Of a DNA stretch of 64,000 nucleotides, positions 18,752 through 54,309 are shown in pieces. The stretch is from Bacteriovorax sp. BAL6_X (lineage in GTDB: Bacteria; Bdellovibrionota; Bacteriovoracia; Bacteriovoracales; Bacteriovoracaceae). The notes beneath the pieces are model-generated. The model was given only the letters and a program-made list of their open reading frames with translations, was not told the DNA's origin and made no database searches. Position 1 is the first letter of the stretch, and each line of letters opens with the position of its first letter. The position numbers were made by a program, and so were the translations under genes. Location of the stretch: positions 186,001-250,000 of the forward strand of contig NZ_AUMC01000009.1 in NCBI RefSeq assembly GCF_000443995.1, read 5' to 3'.

Positions 18752-18775
18752 AGGTACGTCGATACTTTTGACAAT
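18752..18775 (+). repeat. REP-like element, single copy (forward)
   Basis: Copy of the repeat GGTACGTCGATACTTTT followed by GACAAT. The 23-nt sequence beginning at 18753 is identical to the one at 54110-54132 upstream of the RAYT gene. It lies about 130 bp upstream of the cassette-1 lipoprotein, and an inverted partner lies at the other end of the cassette (21683-21706). Confidence 0.85.
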
Positions 18776-18908
18776 ACTGGGCCCATAGAACCGAACCAAT
18801 TAGATTATATATAATATTAATAACTTAGAAACCGTTCTACTTCTTTACACCCTATAAATAAATTTCACTAAGAAGCAATAATTCTCAATTATTAGCTAAA
18901 TTAGTTTC

Positions 18909-20108
18909 ATGAACAAGTTAATCGCACCACTTATTTTAATCTTAGCTTTCTCGATGGCCTCGTGCTCAAAGGATAGCCAGAAGATCCTAAACTCCAATAT
19001 ACCAAATACGACTCAGTTGGAACCAACAGATAGTAATTCGGACAAAGTCATTCTTAATGCCAAGGTTGGAAATTTCTGCGAAGGCCATGAGTGCCCAGAC
19101 GGGATTATTGCAGTTAAAACAAACGACAAATCAGTAACTTGTGCCGGTATAGTCGAGTCAGCAACAGAAGTTCTGATCTCACAAAACTGCGCCGAAGCAA
19201 GCAACACATTTCATATCCAAACAACGGCCGGAGAAATAATCAAGGTCACATCAGTTGAAGAAGTGCTATCGAACGAATTTAACGACAAAGTTCTTAAACT
19301 TACTACTTCCAAAGAATTGGAAACTCTAGCAACAATCTCAATTCCAGACCCTGATAATAATTCGGTTGAGCTATTAAGCTTTGATAAATTTGGAGTCCTT
19401 ACAAAACAATCATGTGAACTTACATACGCCTCACTTGCTTACGCTAACTCATTCGATAACGAATCCCAACTTCTTAACATCAAAAATTGTGATGGTGTTA
19501 AAGATGGCGCACTCATTTCTCAAGACGGAAATGTGATTGGTTTTCTAACTAAGAAGCATGAAGAGATTGCGTTGTATGAGGGGGTTTCGCTGAATGGAAC
19601 CATTACGACTGAATCAATAACTTCAAAAATAGATTCATTAAGTTTAAATTATGATAATAATGATGCACTTGTATTAGGCTTATATGCATCTGTAATTCCA
19701 CTTATGGAAGGTGAATATAGTAATCAGGAGATTATCTTTAATGAGAAGAACTTCACATTTGAAGTGAATACTTTATGTCTAAATAAAGAATTAGAAGAAG
19801 CTTATGAAGATGAAAAGATAAAAATAGTTTTTAATAATGATATATATGAATTTAATGAAAGATCGAAAATTAAAGTTCTAAAAAACATAGCCTATATACC
19901 AATGAAGTATAGCCTAGTAGCGGACTTCAACCAATCACTAGGTGAGTTTAATAAGAGCCATAAGCATATTATATACAGCGGTAGTATAAACGAATTAGCA
20001 CAAGCAAATAACTATTCTAACATTAACAAAACTGAAAATATTTTTTATATTATTACACCTGTAAATGACGATCGTTATAAGACTAAAAACATCGATTTTT
20101 GCAAATAA
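18909..20108 (+). CDS. Cassette 1 exported lipoprotein, conserved head and variable tail
   Basis: Unrecognised family. 399 aa with a type II signal peptide: hydrophobic stretch and lipobox ASC, lipidation at Cys19. Residues ~36-225 are almost identical to the protein at 23027 (two base differences in 570 nt), whereas residues ~226-399 share only scattered motifs with it. The conserved part looks like a degenerate trypsin-like fold: Cys78 and Cys94 bracket a strand, the usual AAHC is SQNC, and the usual GDSGGP is VKDGALI, so it would be catalytically dead (inference). The tail ends in FCK as in copy 2. It is convergent with the small exported protein and shares a terminator with it. Function unknown; a surface or periplasmic sensor or recognition protein is a guess. 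Confidence 0.8.
   Translation: MNKLIAPLILILAFSMASCSKDSQKILNSNIPNTTQLEPTDSNSDKVILNAKVGNFCEGHECPDGIIAVKTNDKSVTCAGIVESATEVLISQNCAEASNTFHIQTTAGEIIKVTSVEEVLSNEFNDKVLKLTTSKELETLATISIPDPDNNSVELLSFDKFGVLTKQSCELTYASLAYANSFDNESQLLNIKNCDGVKDGALISQDGNVIGFLTKKHEEIALYEGVSLNGTITTESITSKIDSLSLNYDNNDALVLGLYASVIPLMEGEYSNQEIIFNEKNFTFEVNTLCLNKELEEAYEDEKIKIVFNNDIYEFNERSKIKVLKNIAYIPMKYSLVADFNQSLGEFNKSHKHIIYSGSINELAQANNYSNINKTENIFYIITPVNDDRYKTKNIDFCK
19013..19582 (+). repeat. Left conserved block of cassette 1 (direct repeat with 23131-23700)
   Basis: 570 nt matching 23131-23700 with two mismatches that I can see (near 19308 and 19368). It covers the conserved head of the lipoprotein. Identity ends abruptly after TGTATGAGGG. 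Confidence 0.92.
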
Positions 20109-20111
20109 AAA

Positions 20112-20128
20112 AGGGGCTCAAGGCCCCT
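20112..20128. terminator. Hairpin between convergent cassette-1 genes
   Basis: AGGGGC/GCCCCT with a 5-nt loop, preceded by an A-run. It sits between the lipoprotein stop and the stop of the small exported protein and probably serves both directions. Confidence 0.7.
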
Positions 20129-20131
20129 AGA

Positions 20132-20539
20132 TTAATAATTAAAATCTTCTATTTTATAATTTTTAAATTTTACCTTAGTTAATATTCTTCTTTTCAATAT
20201 ATTCGCAGACATGTTCTTTCTAGCTCTTTTAACATTAAAAGAAACATCTTCAACTTCAATTTGCTTATTTTTATAACTATCGATTAGTTCAATATTTTCA
20301 ACACTAAGTACTCTAGATTTAGTTTTAAGTAACCATCTGTCAGAAAGTGAATCGAACTTAAAGTCACCCGAATTAAGAGATTTTAAATCATCACCTGATC
20401 TTTCTTCAACTTCAATAATAGGTAAAGTTCTCCAATCATCAGTTAAATCTCCTGTTCCTCTCCATACACCACCAAGGTCTCCTGTACCAGCAAATATAAT
20501 ATTTGAAAGTAACATTATTAAATATAATTTTTTACACAT
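20132..20539 (-). CDS. Cassette 1 small exported protein
   Basis: Unrecognised, 135 aa. An N-terminal hydrophobic signal (residues ~3-17) suggests export; no clear lipobox. It is homologous to the 132-aa product at 24264. Shared motif: DRWLLKTKSRVLSVENIEL here against NRWILKTKTRVLSVDSIEM there, a Lys/Arg-rich middle, and the ending KVKFKNYKIEDFNY against KVKFKDYKFDDFKY. Its start lies 9 nt after the regulator stop, with AAGGA upstream, so the two are co-transcribed. It belongs to the variable core of the cassette. Confidence 0.75.
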   Translation of the reverse strand: MCKKLYLIMLLSNIIFAGTGDLGGVWRGTGDLTDDWRTLPIIEVEERSGDDLKSLNSGDFKFDSLSDRWLLKTKSRVLSVENIELIDSYKNKQIEVEDVSFNVKRARKNMSANILKRRILTKVKFKNYKIEDFNY

Positions 20540-20548
20540 AATATATCC

Positions 20549-21307
20549 TTATAGTTTTTTTAGTAATGATGAATAAGCAACTAGGTCTGTTCCAAAATTA
20601 TCTGGATTCATCATTATTTTTTTCATTTTATAATCATATTCTTCAGTCAATTCTCTTAACTCAGGCAGAACTTTTTCTAAGTTTAAAGATTCAACCCATA
20701 AAGACCTAGAGCACTTTTTATTTCTTTGTGTCAAACTAAACTCTTCAGCCAACTCTTTATAAATTAACTCATTAACCTTATTTGCAGAATAACCACTCAT
20801 TCTTAAGTCACTATCAGAGAGAAAGAATCTTCCATTCTTATTTATAAAAACTCCATCTGCCGCAAGCTTCATAAAAGTTTTATGACCTTCACGACCATAA
20901 TCTTGAAGTACTTCATTCTCTACTAAACCTGCTGCTGAACTCGCTTTTAACATCATCTTATAAGTAAGTTGCTCTTGAAAATACTTTTCAATATCTTTAT
21001 CGTGAGCTTCAAGTTTAGTTACATCCTGAAAATACCCATACAAACTCTCATGCACCTCAGGGAAGTATTCCCTCACAAATTCCGCAGTCTCTTTTTTTGA
21101 GCACAGGCCATTTAGGACTGTGACACAAATGTCGAGACCAGGGTTTTTAACATCACCCATTTCAAGGCGATGAAATGTTGAAGGCGGAAGCCCAAGCCTT
21201 CTAGCAATTTGATTGCTACTTAAGCGGGAATGCTCTTTTTTGTACTTTCTGATCTTGTCCCGCAAAACTTCGTTTACCGAAGGTCTTTCTAGAAAAACCT
21301 TATCCAT
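20549..21307 (-). CDS. Cassette 1 HTH regulator, TIGR02147/DUF4423-like
   Basis: Predicted DNA-binding regulator, 252 aa. Residues ~20-60 form an XRE-type helix-turn-helix (SSNQIARRLGLPPSTFHRLE). The ~160-residue C-terminal part resembles the TIGR02147 (DUF4423) family by layout (GLVENEVLQDYGREG, then LRELTEEYDYKMKKIMMNPD). Residues 1-91 are identical to the regulator at 24672; the rest is diverged. It is followed 9 nt later by the small exported gene. An array of ATTTCA/TGAAAT inverted repeats lies 135-186 bp upstream of its start and is a likely binding site (inference). Family assignment is from memory of the family's shape and is moderately sure. Confidence 0.75.
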   Translation of the reverse strand: MDKVFLERPSVNEVLRDKIRKYKKEHSRLSSNQIARRLGLPPSTFHRLEMGDVKNPGLDICVTVLNGLCSKKETAEFVREYFPEVHESLYGYFQDVTKLEAHDKDIEKYFQEQLTYKMMLKASSAAGLVENEVLQDYGREGHKTFMKLAADGVFINKNGRFFLSDSDLRMSGYSANKVNELIYKELAEEFSLTQRNKKCSRSLWVESLNLEKVLPELRELTEEYDYKMKKIMMNPDNFGTDLVAYSSLLKKL

Positions 21308-21494
21308 TTTGCTCTCCTCTCTCTAAATTATCCCAAAGTTGTTTAGTAGTTCTTCATACACCATAATCCAATAGAATTTATGAACACTGTAAAAACTATT
21401 AATAAAAATTATTGTTAAGCATTTGATGAGACATAAATAAAATTTCATAAGTGAAATTTCTCGAATTTTTCATAAATGAAATGAATTATTTCAA
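21035..21494 (-). repeat. Right conserved block of cassette 1 (direct repeat with 25161-25620)
   Basis: 460 nt matching 25161-25620 with two mismatches. It contains codons 1-91 of the regulator and the whole upstream region with the inverted repeats. Homology stops at 21494, eleven bases before a REP element. Confidence 0.92.
21442..21493. promoter_or_regulatory. Operator-like array of ATTTCA/TGAAAT repeats, cassette 1
   Basis: Three overlapping inverted repeats: ATTTCA-4-TGAAAT at 21442-21457, TTTCA-4-TGAAA at 21468-21481, and TGAAAT-5-ATTTCA at 21477-21493. The same array is present upstream of the second regulator. Spacing of palindromes suits a dimeric HTH protein; binding is inferred. 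Confidence 0.6.
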
Positions 21495-21504
21495 AATGGA
21501 ATGT

Positions 21505-21706
21505 GGTACATCGATACTTTTCGATAAATCAGTAAGTTAGCTTGAAATCCAGCATGTAAACTTTATCACCAATTCAAATTTCAATAACTTAACTATATTC
21601 CAAACATCAAACTGAACCGAATGATTCATAATTTATCTGAAAACACGGATTTTAGGTCCTTAATGCCATCTAACACTCGAGAATATCGAAAAGTATCGAC
21701 GTACCT
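21505..21706. repeat. Inverted REP pair at the right end of cassette 1
   Basis: Forward arm GGTACATCGATACTTTTCG at 21505-21523 and reverse arm CGAAAAGTATCGACGTACC at 21687-21705; total span about 200 bp. The same arrangement and spacing occurs upstream of the RAYT gene (54110-54309), although the sequence between the arms is different. Confidence 0.85.
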
Positions 21707-21717
21707 CTTACCCTTAA

Positions 21718-22845
21718 TTATATTTTCGATAATTTAGAGATGACCTCTAGATAATTGTCTTTATTAACAACATAGGTTTTTGATTCAGGATATAGCCTGG
21801 AGAAAGCCTCAAGACCTTTCAAGCTACGAGATTTTTTGTATTTTGCTTCAATTGCATGAATCGTCTTTCCTTCTTGATAAATAAAGTCTACTTCTGCATT
21901 TCTTTCTCGCCAATAATAGACCTCACCAGGCAGCTTTAAAAGTTCTTGTAAAACAGATATTTCAAATGCATGGCCATAATATTCATCATCACAATCTAGA
22001 TCCAATGCAGAGGAAAATAGTGAGGGGGCCAATGGAAATAGCTTAGGTGAAGATGACTTTTTTTTAAGTGCCTTATTCGAAAACTTTTGTAGTGATTTAA
22101 TAAGAAAAGCTTTCTCAAAAAGTTGAATATAATTTTTAACAAGATCAGTATTACCTTTATCTTGGAGCTGACCTAGTAGCTTTGTATAACTAATCTCTTG
22201 AGCGGCATAGCTGCAAATTAAATCAAATGACTGTCTAAAAAGTGCAGGTGATTTTACATGTGTAAATGAAAGAATATCTTTACTTACAACTGCATCGACA
22301 ATTGAATTTTTTATATAATGGAGCCAATCTCTTTTCGAGCCCAGTAAAACATAAGATCCAGGATAACCTCCGTATTTAAGGTAATCAGAAAAACTAATAT
22401 CAATGAGCTTTAAAGTTTCAGGATAGCTCCAGTGATTAAAATGATGAAGATAAAATCTGCCTGCCAAGCTCTCAGACAATCCACGGTGAAGATCTAAAGA
22501 GCTAGAACCAAGAACAACAACCCTCATCGTCCCTTTTTCCCGATACTCCCATAATTCCTTCAAAGCTTCTGCCCAATTTTCAACTTTTTGAATTTCATCA
22601 ATAATTAAAAGCTCAACGCCAGCATTAATAGCATTATTATAATTAACTTTTAACCATTCTGGAGAGCGAGAGATCTCACCATCAGCTGTAGTATAGAATG
22701 AATTATATGAAACATTTTCTGCAATTTGTTTCACAGACGTCGTTTTACCAACTTGCCTAGGCCCAATAATGACGTGGATTAGATCATTAAGCACTTCAAG
22801 CTTATCGATCACTTCTTGATTTATATCACGAACTATTATCTTCAT
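21718..22845 (-). CDS. AAA ATPase with DUF4143 (ExeA/AAA_14-type)
   Basis: 375 aa. N-terminal ATPase domain with Walker A GPRQVGKTT (residues 29-37) and Walker B LLIIDEIQKVENW (about 79-91), sensor VLGSSSLDLHRGLSESLAGR (about 114), then the C-terminal DUF4143 region containing EVDFIYQEGKTIHAIEAKYK (about 330), which has a PD-(D/E)xK-like nuclease layout common to the family. These proteins are frequent in accessory DNA; cellular role is not known. It lies alone between the two cassettes, with divergent orientation to lipoprotein 2. A REP arm lies 12 bp past its stop. Confidence 0.88.
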   Translation of the reverse strand: MKIIVRDINQEVIDKLEVLNDLIHVIIGPRQVGKTTSVKQIAENVSYNSFYTTADGEISRSPEWLKVNYNNAINAGVELLIIDEIQKVENWAEALKELWEYREKGTMRVVVLGSSSLDLHRGLSESLAGRFYLHHFNHWSYPETLKLIDISFSDYLKYGGYPGSYVLLGSKRDWLHYIKNSIVDAVVSKDILSFTHVKSPALFRQSFDLICSYAAQEISYTKLLGQLQDKGNTDLVKNYIQLFEKAFLIKSLQKFSNKALKKKSSSPKLFPLAPSLFSSALDLDCDDEYYGHAFEISVLQELLKLPGEVYYWRERNAEVDFIYQEGKTIHAIEAKYKKSRSLKGLEAFSRLYPESKTYVVNKDNYLEVISKLSKI

Positions 22846-22877
22846 AACGAAAGATTAACACAAAATACTAGACCATA

Positions 22878-22928
22878 CTAGTAAAAACAATAGAGCCTTC
22901 TAGCATAATGTAAAACCTAGTAAAAACA
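22878..22928. repeat. Short direct repeat upstream of the ATPase
   Basis: CTAGTAAAAACA occurs at 22878-22889 and again at 22917-22928, 39 bp apart, within the divergent region between the ATPase and lipoprotein 2. Role unknown. Confidence 0.5.
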
Positions 22929-23026
22929 GTAAGATAGAAAGATAAAAAAGCGTCAAATTATATAACACCCTCTAAATAAAATTCACTAAGCAACAACTTG
23001 ATCAAATATTTCGCTAAATTAGCTTC

Positions 23027-24235
23027 ATGAACAAGTTAATCGCACCACTTATTTTAATCTTAGCTTTCTCGATGGCCTCGTGCTCAAAGGATGCACAAAA
23101 GGTCTTAAGCTCCAACACACCAAACACAAATCAGTTGGAACCAACAGATAGTAATTCGGACAAAGTCATTCTTAATGCCAAGGTTGGAAATTTCTGCGAA
23201 GGCCATGAGTGCCCAGACGGGATTATTGCAGTTAAAACAAACGACAAATCAGTAACTTGTGCCGGTATAGTCGAGTCAGCAACAGAAGTTCTGATCTCAC
23301 AAAACTGCGCCGAAGCAAGCAACACATTTCATATCCAAACAACGGCCGGAGAAATAATCAAGGTCACATCAGTTGAAGAAGTGCTATCGAACGAATTTAA
23401 CGACAAAGTTCTTAAACTTACTACTGCCAAAGAATTGGAAACTCTAGCAACAATCTCAATTCCAGACCCTGATAATAATTCAGTTGAGCTATTAAGCTTT
23501 GATAAATTTGGAGTCCTTACAAAACAATCATGTGAACTTACATACGCCTCACTTGCTTACGCTAACTCATTCGATAACGAATCCCAACTTCTTAACATCA
23601 AAAATTGTGATGGTGTTAAAGATGGCGCACTCATTTCTCAAGACGGAAATGTGATTGGTTTTCTAACTAAGAAGCATGAAGAGATTGCGTTGTATGAGGG
23701 TGTTAGTCTTGAGGGTGAAAAAGTTGAAATTGATATAATATCTAAGATTGATAATATAACTATAAATCTTGATTCTTCAGACGCTTTCGCTATTGGAATG
23801 TTTGCTATGGAATATCCGCTAATGGAACTTGAAGACTCATTACTTGAAATTAACTTTATTAAACCAAATAGATTCGTAACTAAAACGAAATGTTTTACAA
23901 AAGCACCTCAAAGTACAAGTATTGATTCTAACTATTACATCAATTTTGATAATAATATTTTTGAAATAAATGAAAAGACAACTTTATCTTCTATTAGTCA
24001 TAGAGCCTATATCGTACGCTCAGATATTTTCATTTTTAATAATGCTGGTTTTAAAGATTATGATTACTACCTCTACGATGGTGATATTGAAGATATTAAG
24101 TTGGACTTTTCAAAAACTGAAATCGATGGTCCTATTCTTAGAAGCTTTAATGACAACAAAACGAGACAAGAAAGAATCAAATATCTATATAACCCTAAAA
24201 CTTTTAACAAATATGACTTAGAATTCTGTAAATAA
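23027..24235 (+). CDS. Cassette 2 exported lipoprotein, conserved head and variable tail
   Basis: 402 aa paralogue of the protein at 18909. Same type II signal peptide with Cys19. Residues 1-22 and ~35-226 are the same as copy 1; residues ~23-34 (the tether just after the lipidated Cys) and the last ~175 residues differ. The diverged tails still align: both have SKID near the junction, an aliphatic DA..G segment ending in PLME, NNIFEINE against NDIYEFNE, and the ending EFCK against DFCK. This suggests one fold with fast-changing surface. Upstream, the copies also share ACACCCT and TTCACTAAG, so the promoter region is part of the duplication. Unrecognised family. Confidence 0.8.
   Translation: MNKLIAPLILILAFSMASCSKDAQKVLSSNTPNTNQLEPTDSNSDKVILNAKVGNFCEGHECPDGIIAVKTNDKSVTCAGIVESATEVLISQNCAEASNTFHIQTTAGEIIKVTSVEEVLSNEFNDKVLKLTTAKELETLATISIPDPDNNSVELLSFDKFGVLTKQSCELTYASLAYANSFDNESQLLNIKNCDGVKDGALISQDGNVIGFLTKKHEEIALYEGVSLEGEKVEIDIISKIDNITINLDSSDAFAIGMFAMEYPLMELEDSLLEINFIKPNRFVTKTKCFTKAPQSTSIDSNYYINFDNNIFEINEKTTLSSISHRAYIVRSDIFIFNNAGFKDYDYYLYDGDIEDIKLDFSKTEIDGPILRSFNDNKTRQERIKYLYNPKTFNKYDLEFCK
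23131..23700 (+). repeat. Left conserved block of cassette 2 (direct repeat with 19013-19582)
   Basis: Partner of the block at 19013, offset 4118 bp, same orientation. Beyond it the sequence diverges sharply. Confidence 0.92.
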
Positions 24236-24238
24236 AAA

Positions 24239-24259
24239 AGGAGAGGTAAAACCTCTCCT
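24239..24259. terminator. Bidirectional terminator between convergent cassette-2 genes
   Basis: Perfect 9-bp stem AGGAGAGGT/ACCTCTCCT with AAA loop, preceded by an A-run. It holds the same place as the cassette-1 hairpin but has unrelated sequence. Confidence 0.85.
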
Positions 24260-24263
24260 ACTT

Positions 24264-24662
24264 TCAATATTTAAAATCATCAAACTTATAATCCTTAAAC
24301 TTAACTTTCATTTTCAATCTTTTTTCTAAAAGCTTTGCTGGAACTTTGTTTTTATACTTATTTTTAAAATCATTAGAAACGTTTAGCACTTCTGTTTGCT
24401 TATCTGTGTACATATCAACCATTTCAATACTGTCTACACTAAGTACTCTTGTCTTAGTCTTCAATATCCATCTATTTAAATAAGAATCATAACTATAATC
24501 TCCAATATTCCATTTATCTTTATCAAAGTCATAGATTTCTTTTATTCTTTCAATTGGTAAGGTATTTGAATTTCCACCTGTTTCTCCTACTAAGCTTAAA
24601 TTCAATGCATTAACATTAATAAATTGAAATACAGCTATAAAACTTAAAATTATCTTTTTCAT
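24264..24662 (-). CDS. Cassette 2 small exported protein
   Basis: 132 aa, homologous to the 135-aa product at 20132 mainly in its C-terminal two thirds. N-terminal signal peptide (hydrophobic residues ~3-19). The central motif NRWILKTKTRVLSVDSIEMV and basic C-terminal part are shared. The N-terminal mature region is unlike that of copy 1 (LVGETGGNSNTLPIERIKE here; a Trp- and Gly-rich stretch there). Its start lies 9 nt after the regulator stop, as in copy 1. Function unknown. Confidence 0.75.
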   Translation of the reverse strand: MKKIILSFIAVFQFINVNALNLSLVGETGGNSNTLPIERIKEIYDFDKDKWNIGDYSYDSYLNRWILKTKTRVLSVDSIEMVDMYTDKQTEVLNVSNDFKNKYKNKVPAKLLEKRLKMKVKFKDYKFDDFKY

Positions 24663-24671
24663 ATTATTTTC

Positions 24672-25433
24672 CTATTTAACATGTCTTATTAAATTATTTA
24701 TTAAAACGACGTCATTACCTTTATACTCTTCTTTGTTCATTATTCTTCGAATCTGATATATATACTCATCCGTTAACTGTGTGAATTCTGAACTAACCTT
24801 CTTCAAGTCAACAGAAGCATACCAAGTATTTCTAAGAGTACTAACAGGGGAACCTAGTTCATTTATTTCATTACACATATCTGTGTGAACAAAAGTTAAT
24901 AACTTATTCAACGTAAAATCTGATAATAGTCCGCTATCCTTTGAAGCATAAAAATTGCCATTTTTATTTGTAAGAATCCCTTTTGCAGCAAGCTTCATAA
25001 ACTTTGCATGCCCTTTACGTCCATATTCTTGCAAAACATAATTCTCAGATAAGCCTGCCTTTGTTGTCGCAAGAATCATCATTCTATATGTTGAATTATC
25101 ATGAAAATATCTTTCTTCAGACTCATCAAAAGCTTCAAGTGTTTGTGACTCCTGAAAATGCCCATACAAACTCTCATGCACCTCAGGGAAGTATTCCCTC
25201 ACAAATTCCGCAGTCTCTTTTTTTGAGCACAGGCCATTTAGGACTGTGACACAAATGTCGAGACCAGGGTTTTTAACATCACCCATTTCAAGGCGATGAA
25301 ATGTTGAAGGCGGAAGCCCAAGCCTTCTAGCAATTTGATTGCTACTTAAGCGGGAATGCTCTTTTTTGTACTTTCTGATCTTGTCCCGCAAAACTTCGTT
25401 TACCGAAGGTCTTTCTAGAAAAACCTTATCCAT
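24672..25433 (-). CDS. Cassette 2 HTH regulator, TIGR02147/DUF4423-like
   Basis: 253 aa paralogue of the regulator at 20549. The DNA-binding N-terminal 91 residues are identical, so both should recognise the same operator; the C-terminal ~160 residues are diverged but alignable (GLSENYVLQEYGRKGHAKFM against GLVENEVLQDYGREGHKTFM). This pattern, same DNA-binding head and different sensing part, mirrors the lipoprotein. It is preceded by the same array of ATTTCA/TGAAAT repeats. Confidence 0.75.
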   Translation of the reverse strand: MDKVFLERPSVNEVLRDKIRKYKKEHSRLSSNQIARRLGLPPSTFHRLEMGDVKNPGLDICVTVLNGLCSKKETAEFVREYFPEVHESLYGHFQESQTLEAFDESEERYFHDNSTYRMMILATTKAGLSENYVLQEYGRKGHAKFMKLAAKGILTNKNGNFYASKDSGLLSDFTLNKLLTFVHTDMCNEINELGSPVSTLRNTWYASVDLKKVSSEFTQLTDEYIYQIRRIMNKEEYKGNDVVLINNLIRHVK

Positions 25434-25620
25434 TTTGCTCTCCTCTCTCTAAATTATCCCAAAGTTGTTTAGTAGTTCTTCATACACCATAATCCAATAG
25501 AATTTATGAACACTGTAAAAACTATTAATAAAACTTATTGTTAAGTATTTGATGAGACATAAATAAAATTTCATAAGTGAAATTTCTCGAATTTTTCATA
25601 AATGAAATGAATTATTTCAA
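25161..25620 (-). repeat. Right conserved block of cassette 2 (direct repeat with 21035-21494)
   Basis: Partner of the block at 21035, offset 4126 bp. Homology ends at 25620; no REP element follows here, unlike in copy 1. Confidence 0.92.
25568..25619. promoter_or_regulatory. Operator-like array of ATTTCA/TGAAAT repeats, cassette 2
   Basis: Same three overlapping inverted repeats as at 21442-21493, starting ATTTCATAAGTGAAAT at 25568. It is placed 135 bp upstream of regulator 2. Confidence 0.6.
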
Positions 25621-54109: not shown

Positions 54110-54309
54110 GGTACGTCGATACTTTTGACAATTTCCATTAGTTATAAATATTTGTGCTCAAATTTAGATTATATTTCACTTAAAACACATGCTTTTTACC
54201 TTAAATGATTAATGGTTCATGGATAAAATGAGAATTTGAGTCATATTAGAGGGATTGTTTCTTATTTTGAAAGCTAAGTTATTGGTTTTTCCAAAAGTAT
54301 CGACGTACC
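54110..54309. repeat. Inverted REP pair upstream of the RAYT gene
   Basis: Forward arm GGTACGTCGATACTTTT from 54110 (continuing GACAAT) and reverse arm AAAAGTATCGACGTACC at 54293-54309, total 200 bp, with an AT-rich unrelated interior. Same layout as 21505-21706. Confidence 0.88.

Follow-up and report, generated by a model that had tools for sequence, protein, structure and literature searches.

Near-identical ends and diverged cores in a duplicated regulator cassette of Bacteriovorax sp. BAL6_X

How can two copies of one gene cassette be almost identical at both ends and, in between, as distant from each other as genes of different species? The question is raised by a 64,000-nucleotide stretch of the Bacteriovorax sp. 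BAL6_X genome (contig NZ_AUMC01000009.1, positions 186,001 to 250,000; the whole stretch is called the window), in which two direct three-gene cassettes lie at 18909-21494 and 23027-25620. In each of them, a lipoprotein gene on the forward strand converges with a regulator gene on the reverse strand, which is followed by the gene of a small exported protein. The start-to-start distance of 4118/4126 bp (4.12 kb) agrees with the spacing of about 4.1 kb given by an initial annotation, which was made from the sequence without database searches. In our view, it is somewhat more likely than not (roughly 0.55) that the cassettes are envelope-signalling modules under autoregulation, and that gene conversion has homogenised the address parts of the duplicates, whose input parts have diverged.

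Constant ends enclose a diverged core

Alignment of the copies bore out the annotated mosaic of two constant blocks, with two differences each, around a diverged core of approximately 1.45 kb. The left block of 570 bp (19013-19582 in copy 1 and 23131-23700 in copy 2) has just two mismatched positions, 19308 and 19364. The right-hand block of 460 bp (21035-21494 and 25161-25620) comprises the part coding for the helix-turn-helix (HTH) domain of the regulator and 187 bp upstream, and differs at 21408 and 21420 only, both non-coding and upstream of the regulator. The core (19583-21034 and 23701-25160) encodes the C-domain of the lipoprotein, the small protein and the C-terminal half (C-half) of the regulator. 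Altogether, 552 of 2584 aligned sites differ. The longest stretch to contain no more than two mismatches has 568 bp, whereas 5000 shuffles yielded 86 bp at most (p 2e-4, the lowest value that this test can return). Mosaic structure also occurs within the left end: the signal-peptide part (18909-18974) is identical, the adjoining 18975-19012 has 12 differences in 38 bp from its counterpart at 23093-23130, and identity resumes thereafter. Thus, the left end, which had been annotated as fixed, is fixed in the signal-peptide part but not in this patch. Likewise, the promoter that was said to be constant is that of the regulator, whereas the region upstream of the lipoprotein gene (about 18840-18908) is merely 75-80% identical, approximately, between the copies.

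Old cores, young ends

Synonymous divergence (dS) is 0 in the HTH and 0.016 in lipoprotein residues 35-225, compared with 1.05 in the regulator C-half and 1.36 in the small protein; in the lipoprotein tail, it is saturated or not computable. Because synonymous sites are near-identical in the ends and saturated in the cores, the mosaic is recombinational. Nonsynonymous divergence (dN) is lower than dS in the cores wherever dS is measurable. The two regulators share 99-100% identity in the HTH and 39% in the C-half, while identity to the regulator of the congener G050 is 50% in the HTH and 40% in the C-half (copy 1). The C-halves of the two copies are therefore as distant as those of different species, which together with the saturated cores makes the cores old and the ends young. 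This result does not support the annotated hypervariable core, as the cores were not rapidly diversified, and a recent duplication under rapid diversifying selection is ruled out by the saturated synonymous sites. An HTH with 50% identity to that of G050 also indicates that the ends are not intrinsically immutable. The recombination proposed in the initial annotation is strengthened by this comparison, because ends that have diverged in a relative argue for recombination within this genome and not against it.

The 38-bp patch and the diverged region upstream of the lipoprotein gene probably reflect more than one conversion tract superimposed on an older duplication. The constant/variable breakpoints coincide with domain edges: identity is lost at residue 225 of the lipoprotein, whose fold spans 55-227, and at residue 91 of the regulator, whose fold boundaries are 5-85/100+. 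In quartet trees, the cores of copy 1 and copy 2 are sisters for the lipoprotein C-domain and for the small protein.

Pairs of regulators with a constant HTH and a variable C-half were found in several further genera. At three loci (L049/L051/L055), the constant HTH is ascribed to selection because synonymous sites are saturated throughout. Near-identity of the head alone at the DNA level was found in two cases, dispersed paralogues of G057 and a tandem pair of G106, whose sequences carry clear signatures of gene conversion. In the G057 paralogues, approximately 200 bp upstream, including TTTCAYAAGTGAAA, and about 48 codons are near-identical, and the C-half and small protein are diverged; the operator-like site TTTCAYAAGTGAAA occurs four times in G057, twice at the cassettes. 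A frame resembling REP-associated transposases by appearance (L079:219-862) adjoins the G106 tandem regulator pair, which is partly truncated.

Operator-like palindromes precede both regulators

Upstream of each regulator lie tandem palindromes, listed on the forward strand at 21443-21481 in copy 1 (TTTCATAAGTGAAA at 21443-21456 and TTTCATAAATGAAA at 21468-21481) and at 25569-25607 in copy 2 (TTTCATAAGTGAAA at 25569-25582 and TTTCATAAATGAAA at 25594-25607). Exact TTTCATAARTGAAA occurs four times in the 3.23-Mb genome, two before each cassette regulator and none elsewhere, and matches with one mismatch are at background level. The placement of the palindromes suggests operators, through which the regulators may control their own genes and at which both regulators could bind. 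Upstream regions in other genera often carry TCCCANNNTGGGA palindromes, which sometimes recur with a spacing of 41-42 bp or of about 82-87 bp, close to multiples of four turns of the helix (L039, L041, L042, L051, L055, L056). Upstream of the convergent lipoprotein genes in other genera, no TCCCANNNTGGGA operator was found.

The regulator is probably a divergent branch of the TIGR02147 superfamily

The regulators are encoded on the reverse strand at 20549-21307 (copy 1, 252 aa) and 24672-25433 (copy 2, 253 aa). The AlphaFold2 (AF2) model from a 31-sequence alignment (predicted local distance difference test, pLDDT, 83.5) has an XRE-type HTH at residues 5-85, a winged-helix-like region at about 100-175 and a helical tail of two long helices. 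A Foldseek search with this model gave no match below E 0.001. The matches listed for the C-half are winged-helix proteins (VIA Z 6-8), and the absence of a tetratricopeptide repeat (TPR) match among them does not exclude an RRNPPA-type fold. We read the C-half as a winged helix because of these Z values and the match to the TIGR02147 profile, with which the profile of the regulator family was aligned by hhalign at a probability of 97.15% and E 4.7e-11 over 217 columns, across both the HTH and the C-half. The TIGR02147 family cut-off (50 bits) was not reached: the window regulators gave no match, and one of the 31 members matched at E 0.0058. Taken together, these profile comparisons make the regulator probably a divergent branch of the TIGR02147 superfamily. 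Elsewhere in the genome, it has two distant relatives only, with 22-27% identity.

TIGR02147/DUF4423-type regulators share with those of the cassettes their size, an N-terminal HTH and a C-terminal winged-helix region, and are likewise uncharacterised; TIGR02147 was not mentioned in any paper of the literature searched. The partners of TIGR02147 regulators have 320-490 aa, whereas those of the cassette regulators are small proteins. The true TIGR02147 regulators of the same genome (L127-L133) adjoin exported proteins with Gly-rich motifs such as VGNGGD, TGNGGDG or SSGGGD, which suggests that the Gly motif marks a broader theme of regulators next to exported proteins.

The regulator and the small exported protein form the conserved pair

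The small exported proteins are encoded on the reverse strand at 20132-20539 (copy 1, 135 aa, with a GTGDLGG motif after the signal peptide) and 24264-24662 (copy 2, 132 aa). Both cores are intact open frames, and the small protein keeps features such as a C-terminal [ED]DF. The congeners G050 and G049 each have the three-gene layout in a single copy, with ribD next to it in G050, as in the window. We took 86 regulators from loci of the same taxonomic family, 83 of them with enough downstream sequence. A small exported protein follows within 25 bp in 68 of the 83, and 50 of the pairs overlap by four bases. The gene after the pair encodes a lipoprotein in 15 of 69 cases, while among background genes 23 of 408 do so (p 6e-5), and the family of this neighbouring lipoprotein differs between genera. 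For this reason, we regard the regulator and small protein as the core unit and the envelope partner as exchangeable over evolution. The annotated three-gene module therefore survives as a layout in G050 and G049, but the lipoprotein is replaceable and the conserved unit has two genes.

Of the 68 small partners, 43 contain a Gly-rich motif, compared with 43 of 233 other exported proteins, and 16 have a C-terminal GG, compared with 2 of 542. Across 65 modules, the distance between small proteins correlates with that between regulator C-halves (partial r 0.59 with the HTH controlled) more than with that between HTHs (0.22 with the C-half controlled); the corresponding coefficients are 0.65 and 0.47 within the closer group. 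A phylum search (E up to 1e-15) placed the regulator in 105 of 369 genomes, most of them within this family, and none was found on viral contigs. A relation to the Bdellovibrio hit locus (Bd0108/Bd0109) was considered and set aside, with no regulator pairing seen in the descriptions consulted. Where the small partners have GEVTGAG-like repeats, the regulators often have an upstream exported protein on the same strand with a GTGCPxGT-like motif; this neighbour, putatively DUF4360-like, occurs at L091, L093, L095, L097, L099, L101, L103 and L113-L118. Small exported proteins at L172:750-1040 and 1086-1418 contain repeated Gly/Asp motifs (GDRDGS, DDSGGG) with basic residues separating them, and resemble a multi-copy peptide precursor.

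The lipoprotein carries an inactive trypsin-like fold

The lipoproteins are encoded on the forward strand at 18909-20108 (copy 1, 399 aa) and 23027-24235 (copy 2, 402 aa), and no third copy exists in the genome. In copy 1, the lipobox Cys19 is followed by a trypsin-like fold at residues 55-227 (Foldseek E 4e-6, VIA Z about 12) and the variable C-domain at 228-399, for which the model is poor (4 sequences, pLDDT about 25). In all four lipoprotein sequences of the genus, the position of the catalytic His is occupied by N/T/D and the Ser motif is lost; an active S1 serine protease is thereby excluded. The top Foldseek match of residues 55-227 is 3h7t, a scabies mite inactivated protease paralogue, in which the same fold has likewise lost its catalytic residues. 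The likeness is one of fold alone, as the cassette protein is a bacterial lipoprotein with an extra variable C-domain. A different, large lipoprotein (about 570-620 aa, with DxDGD motifs) lies near or divergent from many regulators (L039, L041, L056, L090, L108, L119, L177:2700-4562), and at L177 it is the first gene in an operon of putative type IV secretion component-like proteins.

A proposed envelope-signalling module and its alternatives

In the mechanism we favour, the regulator would be cytosolic and probably co-transcribed with the small exported protein, opposite the convergent lipoprotein gene. It would repress or activate its own operon from the palindromes, and its C-half would read the small protein or the export state of that protein. 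The inactive trypsin-fold domain of the lipoprotein probably serves as a binding platform for an envelope partner. After an old tandem duplication of the locus, gene conversion would have homogenised the operator, the regulator promoter, the HTH and the export and trypsin-fold part of the lipoprotein, while the presumed input parts (the regulator C-half, the small protein and the lipoprotein C-domain) diverged to species-level distance. The operators would then be common to both regulators, so that a single DNA address would serve two different inputs.

Several observations weigh against this mechanism. The small proteins are exported and the regulator is cytosolic, which puts them in separate compartments, and signal peptides and lipoboxes were assigned by simple rules. 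No copy of the palindrome was found before the lipoprotein gene, whose control by the regulator is hypothetical. The co-evolution of the core parts, as initially annotated, holds for the small protein and the C-half over the HTH among the 65 modules, but the order is reversed in the DGT motif class (0.21 with the C-half and 0.53 with the HTH), and the signal could also be explained by plain linkage, with the C-half abutting the small gene. At L049/L051/L055, the regulator C-halves diverge (about 25-41%) and the small proteins are 52-54% identical. Furthermore, the quartet trees do not resolve the regulator tail.

The cassettes might instead be old paralogues without functional coupling, in which conversion persists only where similarity remains and constraint on the C-halves, the small proteins and the lipoprotein tails is weak. 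The ordinary, saturated divergence of the cores, with dN below dS where measurable, fits this explanation, homogenisation confined to the ends can sustain itself because conversion requires similarity, and mosaics occur between unlinked copies too. We nevertheless hold it to be unlikely, since the small protein tracks the regulator C-half beyond the HTH, the pairing of regulator and small protein is retained as widely as described above, and both cores keep intact frames with conserved features, for example the C-terminus of the small protein. Doubtful as well is an exchange of cassettes, in which, after a recent tandem duplication, a divergent allele from another lineage took the place of one core by way of the homologous ends, as with the pherotypes of comQXPA or agr. 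The sharp breaks at domain edges, a core divergence as large as that between species and the same pattern of constant ends and variable cores in other genera would all fit. However, no donor was found, the lipoprotein C-domain and small-protein cores of the two copies are each other's closest relatives, and the patch at 18975-19012 and the region upstream of the lipoprotein gene reveal copies that had already diverged outside the core, favouring old duplication with conversion. Among the genomes analysed, one per species, core swapping between strains, switching, and the antigenic variation and kin or prey recognition suggested by the initial annotation found no support.

Quorum sensing by a Gram-negative receptor and propeptide, in which a Gly-rich peptide freed from the small exported precursor is re-imported and binds the regulator C-half, appears improbable to us. 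A receptor gene followed by an overlapping gene of a small exported protein is the arrangement of Rap-Phr or AimR-AimP (PMC9765709), the enrichment of the Gly-rich motif and of the C-terminal GG points the same way, and one G057 protein has repeated motifs that basic residues separate. On the other hand, the C-half is modelled as a winged helix with helices rather than as TPR, the partners have 80-180 aa with conserved internal sequence, and the window cassettes themselves have a weak Gly motif and an EDF-like C-terminus. Misassembly is a well-known risk with near-identical repeats, and one set of ends could have been copied onto the second cassette by the assembler. Such an artefact is very hard to believe, given the private differences in the ends of both copies, including the 38-bp patch, the same pattern between dispersed copies of an independent genome, and an assembly of 10 contigs that is 99.98% complete.

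Should the coupling of regulator and small protein in the envelope-signalling module be real, a large uncharacterised regulator superfamily would gain a candidate ligand, namely the exported protein of the same operon, and conversion would be seen to split a DNA "address" that stays fixed from an "input" that diversifies, bringing the logic of pherotype loci to Gram-negative one-component regulators. More speculatively, the cassettes might represent a widespread undescribed class of Gram-negative modules, in which a one-component regulator of the TIGR02147 superfamily reads its own exported Gly-motif partner, conversion fixes the operator and HTH while the recognition core diversifies, and the cassettes of one cell share a regulon yet respond to distinct cues from the envelope or from neighbours. 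Should the functional interpretation not hold, two independent genomes would still offer a clean natural example of concerted evolution limited to the DNA-binding end of a gene set.

Other elements at the locus

Between the copies and outside the module lies a gene for an AAA_14/DUF4143 ATPase (21718-22845, reverse strand; Pfam), and Rfam gave no match within the cassette locus. Inverted 17-bp sites, GGTACGTCGATACTTTT, are paired with outer spans of 200/201 or 220/221 bp at 21505-21705 and 54110-54309 of the window, and further pairs occur in genome G000 (C3:603773-603972 and, on C10, 188103-188322, 397800-397999 and 744872-745092). Solo copies are at 18753-18769 and 53410 of the window, and the matches number 19 compared with 2 for a reversed control. 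An ordinary miniature inverted-repeat transposable element between the copies was rejected, because a comparison of four pairs (window 21505 and 54110, C10:188103 and C10:397800) showed unrelated interiors.

Comparison with known systems

The initial annotation knew of no described system of this form, yet comQXPA (PMC5385187) and agr (PMC6834553) have it. At the comQXPA locus, ComQ, ComX and the ComP sensor half are polymorphic, whereas the ComP C-terminus and ComA are conserved (PMC5385187), and the agr locus has a hypervariable agrB-agrC region with allelic groups (PMC6834553). The cassettes likewise have conserved ends around a diverged core, which takes in the small exported protein and the presumed sensing half of the regulator. 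The likeness to comQXPA extends to the constant parts around a variable neighbouring gene, the whole small exported product and the receptor sensing half (PMC5385187). In contrast to comQXPA, with its two-component membrane kinase, modified peptide and alleles that differ between strains, the cassettes encode a regulator that is cytosolic and one-component, both copies reside in a single genome, and no processing enzyme is known. Unlike in comQXPA and agr, Pfam finds no histidine kinase or response regulator domain in the six cassette proteins. The agr system has a membrane receptor kinase without HTH, a cyclic peptide and no lipoprotein.

With the RRNPPA systems (Rap-Phr, PlcR-PapR, AimR-AimP), the cassettes share the gene of a cytosolic regulator followed directly by that of an exported small product (PMC9765709), the arrangement found here beside 68 of the 83 regulators, with the four-base overlap in 50. 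RRNPPA receptors have a TPR fold, whereas the C-half of the cassette regulator is winged-helix-like in its model. The study cited concerns Firmicutes (PMC9765709). The locus thus has the form of comQXPA and agr, a gene order like that of RRNPPA and the parts of none of them: a known logic in an uncharacterised regulator superfamily.

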